A stretch of 64,000 bases of DNA from the NCBI GenBank assembly GCA_025360005.1, contig JANYDA010000008.1, positions 62,001-126,000 of the forward strand. Reading direction: 5' to 3'. Positions 14,623 to 21,447 of this stretch are shown piece after piece. Numbering within the stretch: the stretch's first letter is position 1; every line of letters starts with the position of its first letter. Position numbers and translations under genes: made by a program. This stretch comes from Fibrobacteria bacterium (GTDB lineage Bacteria > Fibrobacterota > Fibrobacteria > UBA11236). The notes below the pieces were generated by a model. The model was not told where the DNA came from, did no database searches, and saw only the letters and a program-made list of their open reading frames with translations.

Positions 14623-14990
14623 TCTGTTTCCATGCTCCTGTATTGCGAAAAATCCCCGGACCGCCCCGCGGGCGCAATGTCCCGTCCCAAGAGCGGCCGA
14701 TGGAGGCCGGCGCCACCGGAGGGATCCGGAACGGGGCTGGGCAAAACTAAATAAGTTTGCCCCCCCTAGAAAGGGCCGGAACCGGACCCTGACGGAGTCT
14801 GTCCAACCCGGGCTGAATCCGGGTGCGGCCGCGGCGGCCGCGCAAAGCCGTGCCCGGAATGGCTGCCGCCTAGAATGAACTTGGGCGGGATAAGGTCCGG
14901 AATCGCCGTGTTTGTAAATTATACCCGCTAAACCACGACTGCCTGAACGCGAATTTGTACCGTACAGGAAAATTGCCGAAAGGGATTATC
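14623..14990. other. Divergent intergenic region between gnd and htrA
   Basis: 368 bases without a gene. At 14739-14762 GGGCAAA and TTTGCCC form a seven-base-pair stem around an A/T-rich loop, which could be an operator. Between 14800 and 14850 are G/C-rich self-complementary stretches. No clear -10/-35 pair was found for either gene; TAAATTAT near 14913 is the best -10-like sequence for htrA. Confidence 0.4.
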
Positions 14991-16565
14991 ATGAAGGGCT
15001 ACCGCCATGCTCCGCTTCTCGCCTTAACCATTCTATTCTCCGGGATCCTTCCCGGGGCCATCGCCCACGCCAAAGATGCCCCCGCCCCCAAGGAAGAGGC
15101 CCGCCCCAAGCGCGGCAGCCTGGATCTGGGCAAAGGGAAACCGGCCCAGACCGATGCCGCCAAGATCGAATTGCTTAACGGGGCCTTCGCCAAGGTGGTG
15201 GAAGCCGTATCGCCCTGCGTGGTCAGCGTGAATACGGAAAAGAAATGGTCCGAACAGGACAAGCAGATGAACCATCCCTTCTTCGAATTCTTCGGCATGC
15301 CCAACCAGCCGGACGGCGGGGGCCAGGAAGACAATTCCCCCAAGCGCAATATCCCGCTGGGCGGCGGCTCCGGCTTCATCGTGAACAAGCAGGGCTATGT
15401 TTTCACCAACGCGCACGTGGTGGAAGGCGCGGACATCGTCAAAGTCAGCCTCATCAACAAGAAGACCTACGTGGCCAAGGTGGTGGGCGTGGATAAAAAG
15501 GCAGACGTGGCCGTGCTCAAGATCAAAGCATCCGGCGAGGAATTGCCCGTGGTCGCTTTCGGGGATTCCAAGAAGCTGGGCATCGGCGAATGGGTGCTCG
15601 CCATCGGCAATCCCTTCGGCCTGCAGAACACGGTGACCTCCGGCATCGTTTCCGCCAAGGGCCGCCGCGATCAGATGCAGCAAGGCGACGCCTATCAGGA
15701 TTTCATCCAGACGGACGCGGCCGTGAACCCGGGCAACTCCGGCGGGCCGCTGGTCAATCTCAAAGGCGAAGTGGTGGGCATCAACTCCAGCATCTACACG
15801 CGCACGGGCGGCTATATGGGCGTCAGCTTCGCCATCCCCATCACCATGGCCGTGAAGGTGGCGGAGGATTTGATCTACGAAGGCAAGGTCACGCGCGGCT
15901 ATCTGGGCATCGGCATCGATAACGTCTCCGAGAACCTGGCGGATGCGCTGGGATTGGCCAATACGCAAGGCTGCCTGGTGCGCGAGGTGATGAAAAACGG
16001 GCCCGCCGCCAAAGGCGGGTTGAAAGAAGGCGATATCATCCTCAAGGTGCAGGGCGTAGTCGCCCAGGACGCGGCCGACCTCCGCAACATGGTGGCCGAT
16101 CTCAAGCCCGGCGAAAAATACGATTTCGAAGTCCTGCGCGACGGCAAGCGCCAGACCATCGGCCTCAAAATAGGCGCGAAGCCGGAAGAGAGCGAAGTCG
16201 CCGGCGACGACGCGGTCTCGGCCCCGGAACCGGACGAGAGCGACGGCAGCTTCCTGTCCAAGAAACTCGGCATCCGTTTCGGCACGCTGGACAAGGAGGC
16301 GCGCGTGAAATACGGCATCCCCAACGATCAGACCGGCGTGGTGATCACGGGGGTCTCGGACGGTTCCAGCGCGGCGGAGAGCGGATTGCAGGAAGGCATG
16401 GTCCTTTCCTATTACAAACGCCAAGCCGACGGTAGTTTTCAAAAAGTCGAGGATCCGAAAAAACTGCTGGCTGCGGTGAAGACATTGAAAGTGGGCGAGA
16501 AGATCGCGTTCAAGGTATTCGCCAAGGGCCGTACGGACTTCATCGCGCTGCAGGCCGACGAGTAG
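14991..16565 (+). CDS. Periplasmic serine protease Do/HtrA
   Basis: Start at ATG 14991 (524 aa), with AAGGG eight bases upstream and a signal peptide (APLLALTILFSGILPGAIAHA) directly after. The trypsin-like catalytic triad is visible: His142 in FTNAHVVEG, Asp172 in KKADVAVLKI and Ser250 in PGNSGGPL. Two PDZ domains follow (about 290-385 with GYLGIGIDNVSENLADALGL, and about 420-520). This is the DegP/DegQ layout of an envelope chaperone-protease that clears misfolded outer-membrane proteins. The enzyme fits a region rich in envelope assembly genes. It stands alone, between a divergent gnd and the non-coding repeat region. No sigma-E-type promoter could be recognised. Confidence 0.93.
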   Translation: MKGYRHAPLLALTILFSGILPGAIAHAKDAPAPKEEARPKRGSLDLGKGKPAQTDAAKIELLNGAFAKVVEAVSPCVVSVNTEKKWSEQDKQMNHPFFEFFGMPNQPDGGGQEDNSPKRNIPLGGGSGFIVNKQGYVFTNAHVVEGADIVKVSLINKKTYVAKVVGVDKKADVAVLKIKASGEELPVVAFGDSKKLGIGEWVLAIGNPFGLQNTVTSGIVSAKGRRDQMQQGDAYQDFIQTDAAVNPGNSGGPLVNLKGEVVGINSSIYTRTGGYMGVSFAIPITMAVKVAEDLIYEGKVTRGYLGIGIDNVSENLADALGLANTQGCLVREVMKNGPAAKGGLKEGDIILKVQGVVAQDAADLRNMVADLKPGEKYDFEVLRDGKRQTIGLKIGAKPEESEVAGDDAVSAPEPDESDGSFLSKKLGIRFGTLDKEARVKYGIPNDQTGVVITGVSDGSSAAESGLQEGMVLSYYKRQADGSFQKVEDPKKLLAAVKTLKVGEKIAFKVFAKGRTDFIALQADE

Positions 16566-16591
16566 CGCGCGGGTTTTGGTCGCGCACGTCC

Positions 16592-16817
16592 GCGAGGGGT
16601 GCGCGCGCCTTCCCGGGCTGGCGGCTCGGCAAGTCGCCGGCTATGCGCTGGGTTGGCGGCTCACGGCTGGAGCAGGCTGCGAGGTCGGTCGCCCCCGCTC
16701 GACATTAGCCGGTCTCCCCATTGGATCTTTAGGAAGAGCGCGAGCGGGTGCTGCGCCGTGCGGCCCCGGCTTGGTTGCCTCGCCTGATTCGCCCCGGAAG
16801 GCGCGCGCACCCCTCGC
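16592..16817 (-). repeat. Long self-complementary element, copy A (candidate structured RNA)
   Basis: Bases 16592-16613 and 16796-16817 are perfect 22-base inverted repeats enclosing about 180 bases. Read on the minus strand, the inside holds GGGGCGA…GGCG next to the 5' arm and GAGCCGCCAGCCCG next to the 3' arm, which can continue the stem. It also has an eight-base-pair stem CCCGCTCG/CGAGCGGG. In the centre is a hairpin TCTTCC/GGGGAGA with a 12-base loop (UA…CAAU). A second copy with the same inner motifs but different arms lies at 17149-17378 in the opposite orientation. It could be a structured RNA or a small transposon-like repeat. No tRNA, 6S RNA or tmRNA pattern fits. Confidence 0.55.
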
Positions 16818-17148
16818 TGGCGTACAGGGTCAACGCGCGTGCGCAAATGCGGGGTCCAAAATAAAGACTGCGGTCCAAACCCCGTTGACCGCAAATGCCC
16901 CACCTTACCGACTCACCTTAGTCCAGCCCACGCTAGTCTTAGGCGTGGGCGGTCGCAGCACCGCGTCAGCATCGGCGCTGCATTCTCTTTAGGACCACTC
17001 CCTCCGAATAACCACCGAGCCCTCATGAAATCACCCCGCTAGCCGGAAGCCCACACCACAGCCCCGACCAGTAGCCAATAGCCCGCAATCCACAGGACCC
17101 ACCTTCTTCACCGACAAAAACCTTAGTCTGGTGCGGCCCATTCGACCG
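16818..17148. other. Non-coding spacer between the two repeat copies
   Basis: No supportable gene. It holds GGTCAACG (16828-16835) paired with CGTTGACC (16883-16890) and an eight-base-pair hairpin GCCCACGC/GCGTGGGC (16926-16950). There is also a twice-used ACCTTAGTC. Base composition drops in G/C after 16980. These short stems may belong to the same non-coding unit. Confidence 0.35.
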
Positions 17149-17378
17149 CGGCCTGCGCCCCCGCGCGGGGCTCCGGGCGATCGGCGGAAGGGGTGAGGCG
17201 GGACCGGCGGCGGAGCGCGCCGCGAGTGCTCTTCCTATGGGCTCAATGGGGAGACCCGCTCATCACGAGCAAGCGCCGCGACCGGAACCCATCGATCCGC
17301 CGCCGGGCCGGCAGACCGCGCTATAGCGCCGATCCCCCGGAGCCGCCAGCCCGTAGCCCCGCGCGGGGGCGCGGGCCG
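17149..17378 (+). repeat. Long self-complementary element, copy B (candidate structured RNA)
   Basis: Bases 17149-17172 pair with 17355-17378 over 24 positions with a single T-G wobble. Inside, in plus-strand order, are GGGCGA…GGCGG, the central CTCTTCCTA…CAATGGGGAGACC (17230-17259) and GAGCCGCCAGCCCG (17341-17354). The same motifs occur in the same order in copy A at 16592-16817. The outer arms of the two copies differ almost completely in sequence yet each pairs with itself, as expected if pairing and not sequence is maintained. The right arm ends 18 bases before the stop codon of the convergent TonB-receptor gene. Confidence 0.55.
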
Positions 17379-17395
17379 GGATAGACCGAACAGCA

Positions 17396-19849
17396 TCAGA
17401 TAAGCAACTTGCCCTCGAGGCCGAACATGATGAAGAGGCCCATGCCCCGCGTCACCACCGGTTCCAGATCCCCGTTGGGATTGGCCCGGGTCCAACCGCG
17501 CTTGCGTTGGTTGGACCCGCCCAGGTAGGAGAAGTACGAGTTGTCGAAGTCGGCGAAAATATTATCCGCCTCGAAGAAGAAGCGCATGGCGTCGAGCGGC
17601 CGCCAATGACTTTTCAGATCGAGATTGATGCGCACGTCAGTGCGTTGCCGGGACACCAGGGGATAAGTCCCATCCACTCCGATGGTCCGTCGCTGCGTCG
17701 CGCCCTTGTTGTACAGGCCGGTGTATTGGTAAAGCGGCGCATCGTTCGCGGCGCCGTAGGTGAGGATGAAGCTGAGCAGGGAATCGTTGCGCGGCAGGAT
17801 GCGGATATTGGAAACCAGATCCAGGCTGCGGTTGGCTTCCCAAGGAAGATAGCTGTCGTCTTCCAGATGGTAATCGCCTTGCACCACCGAGGCATTCACG
17901 TTCATCCCGAAATGATGGCTGGGCAGCCACGCCACCGTCACGTTACCGCCGTTGGCATAGGCGAAATCGGAGGAGTGCGTTTCCGCATAATTCCAGAAAA
18001 CCTCGGGAACGGGAAGCACCGGATCCTTGTAGAAGCGCGAATACAGGCTGGCGGTCATCTTGATTTCGTCGAGCCAGCCCCCTTCCACGCCCAGCTTGCC
18101 TTCCGCGCTGGACGTGGTCACCGCATCGATACGGTTGGTGCCGGTCGGCTGGATGGCCGTGTTCTGGCGCAGCGCCACTTCGCCATAGCCGATAACGCTC
18201 TTGATCACGGGCCGGGAATAGCGCAGAGAGGCCAAGGGAGCCGGAGTGTTCAGGCCCGCATTCGCGCCGTTGAAAAAATCCTGGTAAACGAAAGCGGCGC
18301 CCACCGCCGCATCGAGTGTTTGCTTATCCGGCAAAGTCCAACGCAAGCGGAGCAGGCCGTTTCCCAAGCCATAGTCCTGCGCCAGCCGCAAGTAGCGCGG
18401 ATTGGGAATGTTACCGTCGGTATAGATGTCCAAATAATTGCGCACCTGCTGAAGGTACTCCATGTCCCAACCATAGCTGAAAGCGGCGCCCAGCACCTTG
18501 CGGTTGGAATTCCATTGCAGGGATGTGGTCACCTGGAACTCCTGGTTGCTGGCGTCCCCGATGGTATTATCCACCGATTGGCCGTTCTGGGGATACCAGG
18601 GATAAGCAAGGGAAAGGTCCCCCAGATCCGGCGGCAAGGTATCCCGGAAGGTTTCTTCGCGGTTGCGCCGCATGAAGCCCAGGGCGTAATTGAGATCCCC
18701 GCTTTCGTGCGGGGAGAGCCCTTCGTACGCGTACATCCACCCATCCTGCGTCCCATCCACCAGCACCTGCGGCTTGCTCTCGCCCTTGATGTTGGAAACA
18801 TCCTGGATCACTTTGTAGGAGTCATCCAGGCCGATGATGCTGTGCCGAGTATAAGCGCCGGTGGAATCGCGTTCAAAGGTGCCCAGGTAACCGTCCATGG
18901 TCTTGAACTTGAAGGGTTCCTTGATGGTCTGGCAATTGGTTTTGCAGGGAGCGCCGTTGCTTTGGATGCGCGCATCCTTGGGATCGGTGAAGAAGTGCTC
19001 CCCAAGATTGGCCAGGAAGGTGGGCTCCAGATAGCGCCCGCTGGCGATGAAGGTACGGCCGCCCCAATATCCCGTCAGGTTCAATTCGCGGTTGACGGTG
19101 CCGAAGACCACGTCTCCGGTGATGTTGTTGGGATCGCCGTCCTTGAGATCGTAGACGAGCGCGGAAGCGTTGCCCTGGTTGATGGGCCCCTTGGCCAGGT
19201 TGTCCGAGACGGTGATGGATTTGAGCAGGCGGGGATTGAGGACGCTTTGGTTGCCCGGGAACCCGATATCGAGATGGCGCAGGCTGGGGATGCGGCTTTG
19301 GCCAAGGTAATGAGTGACATCATTGGTGCGAGAACCCCACACGGAGATATCATTGGAAAATTCATTCATGCCGGATACGCCCGGAAGCTGGCGCAGATGA
19401 TCGTTGAGATCGATGCGCATCCCCTGCATCAACTCCAGTTCCTCCATCGATTTCGCCCCGCCCAGATCCAGCGCCACCCCTTTGCGGGAAACGGTATCCT
19501 TGTCGGCCAGGCTGATCACGTCCGACTCCATGTTCACTTCGATGTCGATGAGCTCGGTCAGATCGGTGAGATCCAATTCCTGGGTCTTGAAAGTATGGCG
19601 TTTGAACACCAAGGTGGAATTGTGGCTATTGACGGTGATCTCGAAACGGCCGTTCGATTTGGTGTATCCCAGCACCTTGCCGCTTTGCTGGGAGATTTCC
19701 ACCTGGCCGATGGGTTCGCCCTTCTCCCCGTCCAGCACCAGCCCCACTACATTGTAAGTCTGGGCGAACGCGGGGACGGCCGCCAGCAGCAGGCATGCGA
19801 GCAAGGCCGCGCCCAAATTCCTGATACCTACCTTGCACTGCAAAAGCAC
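17396..19849 (-). CDS. TonB-dependent outer-membrane receptor with carboxypeptidase-like N-terminal domain
   Basis: An 817-residue exported protein. The signal peptide (GAALLACLLLAAVPAFAQ) is followed by a CarboxypepD_reg-like domain (about 32-110, YNVVGLVLDGEKGEPIGQVEI). Next comes a plug domain (about 135-270, LNDHLRQLPGVSGMNEFSNDISVWGSRTNDV) and a barrel of some 540 residues ending in GLEGKLLI. Such receptors pull large ligands such as glycans or siderophores through the outer membrane using TonB energy. No SusD-like partner and no TonB box can be identified. The start is uncertain: GTG at 19849 sits on top of its AGGGGG, while TTG at 19843 has better spacing. It is divergent from serS. 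Confidence 0.85.
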   Translation of the reverse strand: MLLQCKVGIRNLGAALLACLLLAAVPAFAQTYNVVGLVLDGEKGEPIGQVEISQQSGKVLGYTKSNGRFEITVNSHNSTLVFKRHTFKTQELDLTDLTELIDIEVNMESDVISLADKDTVSRKGVALDLGGAKSMEELELMQGMRIDLNDHLRQLPGVSGMNEFSNDISVWGSRTNDVTHYLGQSRIPSLRHLDIGFPGNQSVLNPRLLKSITVSDNLAKGPINQGNASALVYDLKDGDPNNITGDVVFGTVNRELNLTGYWGGRTFIASGRYLEPTFLANLGEHFFTDPKDARIQSNGAPCKTNCQTIKEPFKFKTMDGYLGTFERDSTGAYTRHSIIGLDDSYKVIQDVSNIKGESKPQVLVDGTQDGWMYAYEGLSPHESGDLNYALGFMRRNREETFRDTLPPDLGDLSLAYPWYPQNGQSVDNTIGDASNQEFQVTTSLQWNSNRKVLGAAFSYGWDMEYLQQVRNYLDIYTDGNIPNPRYLRLAQDYGLGNGLLRLRWTLPDKQTLDAAVGAAFVYQDFFNGANAGLNTPAPLASLRYSRPVIKSVIGYGEVALRQNTAIQPTGTNRIDAVTTSSAEGKLGVEGGWLDEIKMTASLYSRFYKDPVLPVPEVFWNYAETHSSDFAYANGGNVTVAWLPSHHFGMNVNASVVQGDYHLEDDSYLPWEANRSLDLVSNIRILPRNDSLLSFILTYGAANDAPLYQYTGLYNKGATQRRTIGVDGTYPLVSRQRTDVRINLDLKSHWRPLDAMRFFFEADNIFADFDNSYFSYLGGSNQRKRGWTRANPNGDLEPVVTRGMGLFIMFGLEGKLLI

Positions 19850-21275: not shown

Positions 21276-21447
21276 GATTTTTGCAAATTGAAAATTGCAA
21301 ATTGAAATATGAAAATTTTGAAAGCCGGGATCCGACTTTCAAGAGGCCGTGCGGTTTATCGCGCCGGCCGCAAAATCGGTAATCGTTTTCCAGGGGTCAG
21401 AACCATTTTGCGATTTTCAATTTGCAATTTGCAATTTGCAGAATTGC
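21275..21447. repeat. A/T-rich phased inverted repeat, locus 1
   Basis: The left arm (21275-21320) and right arm (21403-21447) consist of 7-8-base units of the type GCAAATTG / AAAATTG. They are complementary over most of their length and enclose about 80 ordinary bases. Similar arms with different units occur at 29982-30140 and 56622-56660. It fills the gap between serS and the PorY-like kinase gene. Confidence 0.7.

Follow-up and report, generated by a model that had tools for sequence, protein, structure and literature searches.

Large covarying palindromic elements at gene ends in a genus of Fibrobacteria

The window analysed here is a stretch of 64,000 nucleotides from a contig of a Fibrobacteria bacterium (JANYDA010000008.1, positions 62,001 to 126,000), and positions below are counted from its first base. 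A gene-free gap of 830 bases (16566–17395) lies between a degP/HtrA-like gene and a convergent gene for an outer-membrane-type protein. Two palindromic elements, A and B, occupy this gap on opposite strands, where a preliminary description, made from the letters, had placed them. The features of the locus are as follows.

14955–16565, plus strand: degP/HtrA-like protease (trypsin and PDZ domains), stop codon 20 bases from element A
16586–16823, minus strand: element A, palindromic gene-end element, 135 bits with covariance model R1
16586–16618 and 16791–16823: arms of element A, 33 bases each, with a few mismatches
16824–17148, no strand: spacer between A and B, partly conserved in genomes G002 and G004
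17149–17378, plus strand: element B, palindromic gene-end element, 155 bits
17149–17178 and 17349–17378: arms of element B, 30 bases each, with a few mismatches
17186–17188, plus strand: 5′ side of the unpaired GNA/GNA internal loop in B (G in 24 of 24 copies, A in 19 of 23)
17212–17281, plus strand: tip hairpin of B, with the conserved CUCUUCC and GACC..GCUNAU
17339–17341, plus strand: 3′ side of the GNA/GNA internal loop in B (G in 23 of 24 copies, A in 23 of 24)
17396–19849, minus strand: outer-membrane-type protein with a CarboxypepD_reg-like domain; 17 bases separate its stop codon from element B

Perfect or near-perfect arms of 22 and 24 bases had been proposed for the two elements; their pairing was borne out, while the lengths were revised upward to 33 and 30 bases. 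No inverted repeat scoring as high as these arms was found in four random-sequence nulls of the window, and the folding of A and of B each lay about 6 standard deviations below dinucleotide shuffles. The same ordered motifs are present in both interiors, as had been described, and the alignment identity between A and B is only modest. Because the 3′ ends of A and B face the stop codons of degP/HtrA and of the outer-membrane-type gene, respectively, the pair in the window is read as two convergent genes, each capped by a separate element. No terminator-like site (a G+C-rich hairpin with a T-run) was found between 16500 and 17450, and a simple intrinsic terminator is disfavoured because the T-run is absent. 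A short hairpin in the spacer near 16926–16950 (CCCACGC...GCGTGGG) is kept in three species.

DNA searches of the same-genus genomes returned a syntenic pair in G002, a degP-side copy in G004, and dispersed copies. A covariance model built from ten sequences located 23 places in five of the six genomes from the genus, among them both members of the pair in G004; one further place came from a re-scan, for a total of 24 copies. Between 1 and 9 copies were detected per genome, with 5 model matches in the window's own genome (4.98 Mb). The preliminary description had proposed such a search of Fibrobacterota for copies with paired but divergent arms, and many more were indeed recovered. Copies are about 60% alike; a match of a mere 29 bits (L084) still has a near-perfect outer stem, and scans for palindromes yielded two further diverged copies (L194:1104–1404 and L223:13260–13448). 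Because such weak and additional diverged copies exist, the true copy number lies above the model count.

Outside the genus, the covariance model found no copy in 55 other Fibrobacterota genomes, nor was one found in 162 non-genus Fibrobacterota genomes under stricter filters, which may miss weak copies. A pattern scan of GTDB matched only RYN_348 (the same genome as G002), and a distant blastn of plasmids and phages found no homologues. As a negative control, 80 viral loci drawn from a loose IMG/VR pattern scan gave no covariance-model match. Against Rfam, the window had no match at the gathering threshold and only chance-level matches up to an E value of 10, which agrees with the earlier view that the elements were undescribed; no description of such elements in Fibrobacterota was found in the literature. 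This is a real, multi-copy and previously unlisted family.

Each element is an inverted repeat of 200–270 bases. The consensus runs from an outer stem of 24–40 bp through GGGGC/GCCCC, an internal loop with AUCA, GGC/GCC, the GNA/GNA loop and inner helices to a variable tip. Near-perfect outer stems that differ in sequence are present in nearly all 24 copies, that of G000:C17 being degenerate. Two-sided change was seen in 47 of the 52 pairs (29 in shuffles), cells changed on both sides numbered 231 (65 in shuffles), and the covariation score was 0.510, as compared with 0.157 for shuffled alignments and at most 0.094 for slid controls. The proposed covariation is thus far beyond both nulls, and it also holds on a plain MAFFT alignment of ten sequences. 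Among the inner pairings suggested from A and B, GGGC/GCCC and GGC/GCC are conserved; TCTTCC/GGGGAGA is not, its 5′ letters being kept across the 24 copies while the 3′ partners vary. The unpaired motifs AUCA, GNA/GNA, CUCUUCC and GACC are conserved in one orientation, and the tip motif is swapped for other sequence in some copies. The G and A of the internal loop are predicted to form sheared pairs on one strand alone, the modelled one, which lies antisense to the capped gene; sheared G–A pairs are stable in DNA too.

In 23 of the 24 copies, no more than about 55 bases separate the 3′ end of the element from a stop codon belonging to a gene on the opposite strand, the gaps ranging from about −10 to 53 bases and usually being below 30 (that of G002:C85b was taken from the junction sequence). 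On the other side, hundreds of bases usually separate the element from the next gene. Orientation is uniform relative to the capped gene. By our reading, the genes on the two sides are convergent at 19 of the 24 copies and co-directional at 4. The capped genes are functionally unrelated and encode HtrA, outer-membrane proteins, PorX, YicC, SOD, LeuA, a NuoI-like protein, YbjQ, and SecD/F, with the names PorX, YicC, SecD/F and NuoI-like assigned from domains or sequence.

Presence varies between species at orthologous genes. At yicC, the element is found in G000, G002 and G004, only a few tens of bases separate the convergent genes in G001 and G005, and the 3′ end of the gene in G003 (L369) carries an unrelated heptamer palindrome instead. 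At degP, it is present in five genomes and absent in G005. The gap between PorX and tsaE holds an element in G002 and none in G000 or G004; in G005 it holds an unrelated palindrome of 166 bases (L195:13418–13583), whose perfect 30-base arms include the PorX stop codon. A clean insertion unit is not defined, because the filled yicC sites carry 300–470 additional bases beyond the palindrome. No target-site duplication was seen at the junctions by eye. The earlier suggestion of a small mobile element is upheld in part: sister genomes do have empty sites, but shared terminal repeats and a transposase were not found.

The genus seems rich in large palindromes. A second class of long palindromes consists of inverted heptamer arrays (TTGCAAA TTGAAAA) that flank a spacer and usually follow directly on a stop codon. 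One lies in the window at 21279–21443, between serS and a histidine kinase gene, and others were seen at L086:9586–9721, L104, L110, L136, L138 and L140. Sister species have heptamer-like units of their own (AGGGTTA, AGGTTTA, GGGCGTC...) in the same palindromic layout, at L213:18394–18472 and L369 in G003, L202 and L204 in G005, and L180, L191 and L192 in G002; the serS gap of G003 also has a palindrome, unrelated in sequence. Single large unrelated palindromes occur at L118:6114–6331, L129:18189–18422, L208:7048–7435, L212:18919–19050 and L223:9601–9827, mostly near gene ends. Those of L118 and L129 were tested as members of the family and rejected.

A structured RNA tolerates G·U pairs and not A·C pairs, and on the opposite strand these roles are swapped. 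Folding of either strand yields the same 52 pairs in the family. The paired columns hold 37 G·U and 33 A·C, in an alignment that contains errors (112 other mismatches); a separate alignment of the arms, scoring both kinds equally, gave 28 G·U, 30 A·C and 75 other mismatches. As a control, RNase P RNA from 14 related genomes (the genus and relatives), on ordinary MAFFT alignments, gave 163 G·U versus 24 A·C, and 51 versus 17 in the pairs found on both strands. Family and RNase P differ with a Fisher p of 2e-8 over all pairs and 0.008 over strand-neutral pairs, figures that make a comparison rather than a proof, given that the counts are of sequences and not events and that RNase P is the slower-evolving yardstick. 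In orthologous comparisons, the elements had 20 G·U versus 16 A·C, and RNase P had 53 versus 17 in strand-neutral pairs. The preliminary description had taken changing arms with kept pairing as a hallmark of RNA-level selection, a reading that loses its footing with G–U no commoner than A–C in the paired columns.

Among the orthologues of B, an indel of a single base in one arm has its mirror image in the other. In G004:C23 the stop codon of the gene lies within the near arm, and the far arm mirrors it. Because G·U and A·C are about equal and the arms mirror one another through a stop codon, maintenance of a palindrome at the level of DNA, or of two strands, would, judging from these sequences, fit better than a structured RNA on one strand. 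The family should not be filed as noncoding RNA on covariation alone. According to published work, inverted repeats can gain perfect stems and keep them through template switching (PMC8794818). Many take covariation to prove a functional RNA, and here a family with extreme covariation fails the simplest test for an RNA strand; it is thus well suited as a test case for distinguishing RNA-level selection from palindrome maintenance at the DNA level.

The reading that we favour, with a probability of about 0.45, sees the copies as a family of large palindromes, specific to this lineage, that would work at gene ends in the manner of REP/BIME and have their arms matched by template switching. The function at gene ends is suggested by analogy with REP/BIME palindromes. 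A hairpin forming in transcripts that pass the stop codon would shield the message from 3′ decay, and one forming in the transcripts of the convergent neighbour would stop antisense read-through. DNA template switching between the inverted repeats would largely keep the arms identical, and selection would retain the element at gene ends. Several observations count against this reading: the gap lacks a terminator-like site, and the sheared-pair loop is confined to the strand antisense to the capped gene. One copy (G000:C57) lies before purD, upstream of the gene start and in the same direction; the extra copy at L223:13260 likewise precedes the start of a co-directional gene; and at the 4 co-directional copies a convergent transcript is not expected.

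It is improbable that the elements are instead an independent family of structured noncoding RNAs, with the modelled strand transcribed and ending against the convergent gene. The strength of the covariation and the unpaired motifs conserved in one orientation argue for such RNAs, as do the spacer partly conserved among three species and 5′ flanks of 300–470 bases that could house a promoter. No sigma-70-like promoter was found in the gap around A and B, however, and a common promoter block upstream of the copies was looked for and not found, the flanks of most non-orthologous copies being without one. Moreover, G–U equals A–C, unlike in RNase P; the tip motif is replaced in some copies; and the element almost always abuts a gene end and is missing at the same place in sister species. 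That the copies abut, in antisense, the stop codons of genes with no relation to one another, and do not stand alone as RNA genes would, also tells against the RNA-level selection first proposed. We consider it quite improbable that the palindromes are functionless, made and perfected by template switching at gene ends, where little is disrupted, with no selected role. Such an origin would sit well with the other unrelated long gene-end palindromes of the genus (L118, L129, L195 and L223:9601), with species-specific heptamer palindromes, with stop codons that can fall within arms, and with arm mismatches whose types look unselected (28 GU to 30 AC to 75 other). It is opposed by a mismatched internal loop and inner motifs that stay conserved although the orthologous copies are only 56–77% alike, by retention at the same genes across species (degP in five genomes, for example), and by the uniform orientation relative to the capped gene. 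An ordinary MITE with terminal inverted repeats, for which dispersed, non-coding copies with inverted ends and presence or absence between species could be cited, is highly unlikely: the copies showed neither a common end sequence nor a target duplication, they are old (about 60% alike), and a standard MITE was rejected because the arms are not common to copies. Identical arms with target-site duplications had been named beforehand as the mark of a MITE; the arms proved to be locus-specific.

A folded single-stranded DNA site for a recombinase or transposase, attC-like or REP/RAYT-like, with copies spread by recognition of the DNA hairpin, is rather unlikely. A DNA-level role is nonetheless a serious rival, given the strand asymmetry of GNA/GNA, a conserved unpaired loop that would be structured when the antisense strand of the capped gene folds but not when the sense strand does, and given the integrases in four of the five element genomes. 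Covariation that is Watson–Crick-only, an orientation fixed after stop codons and gains at orthologous sites are consistent with such a site. The integron-type integrase TIGR02249, above the cut-off in G000, G001, G002 and G004, is absent from the element-free genome, but six genomes are too few to establish this correlation, to which G003 is an exception; nor was a target duplication or clean junction identified. The Y1 (RAYT-type) transposase PF01797 is absent in G000, G002, G003, G004 and G005 and present only in G001, thus missing from four of the five element genomes, and a RAYT was rejected on this account. In a more specific version, the antisense strand would fold as single-stranded DNA and be recognised by a dedicated recombinase, possibly the unusual integron-type integrase of these genomes, with template switching matching the arms. 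This version is also improbable; if true, the elements would amount to lone attC analogues at gene ends, and to a class of strongly covarying DNA that RNA-discovery pipelines would mistake for noncoding RNA.

Integron attC sites lie directly after stop codons in a fixed orientation, keep their structure while their sequence varies, and are folded on the strand antisense to the gene. The family is similar in its position after stop codons, its fixed orientation, its structure kept over sequence and its antisense modelled strand, but the elements are much longer and are single sites at housekeeping genes. No attC boxes (RYYYAAC or GTTRRRY) were found at the element ends, and no attC-like cassette array was seen within 1.5 kb beside the integrases or in L215; attC was rejected because no R boxes and, within that scope, no array were seen. 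At the integrase loci L370 (G002), L371 (G000), L372 (G004) and L373 (G001), the reading frame extends 130–280 residues upstream of the integrase domain.

Like ERIC/RU-1 and RU-2, the family comprises small palindromic intergenic units. ERIC/RU-1 and RU-2 are described as MITE-like intergenic units of the 100–200 bp class (PMC2759123, PMC2229807) and are known by their shared sequence, whereas the arms of the family are locus-specific and only inner motifs are shared. Hairpins attributed to template switching (PMC8794818) resemble the elements in having perfect stems and simultaneous multi-base changes in both arms; those hairpins belong to known RNA genes and mostly have short stems, whereas the stems here are 24–40 bp, stand at gene ends and have no G–U bias.

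For the favoured reading as gene-end elements working like REP/BIME, a comparison can be made with REPs, most of which follow a coding region and have convergent or unidirectional genes on either side (PMC3733652). Their termini can even supply a stop codon, and for REP/BIME there are reported links to mRNA stability, attenuation and supercoiling (PMC3733652, PMC1525189). The family is alike in lying downstream of genes (23 of 24 copies), often between convergent ones. REPs are 20–40 bp, high-copy sequences that carry a GTAG or CGTC tag and whose stems often contain GT pairs (PMC3733652), whereas the elements of the family are 200–270 bp, have 1–9 detected copies per genome that are about 60% alike, and have arms that are unrelated between copies and show no GT excess. 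The family adds a large, low-copy kind of gene-end palindrome, the effect of which is directly testable through its presence or absence at orthologous genes.
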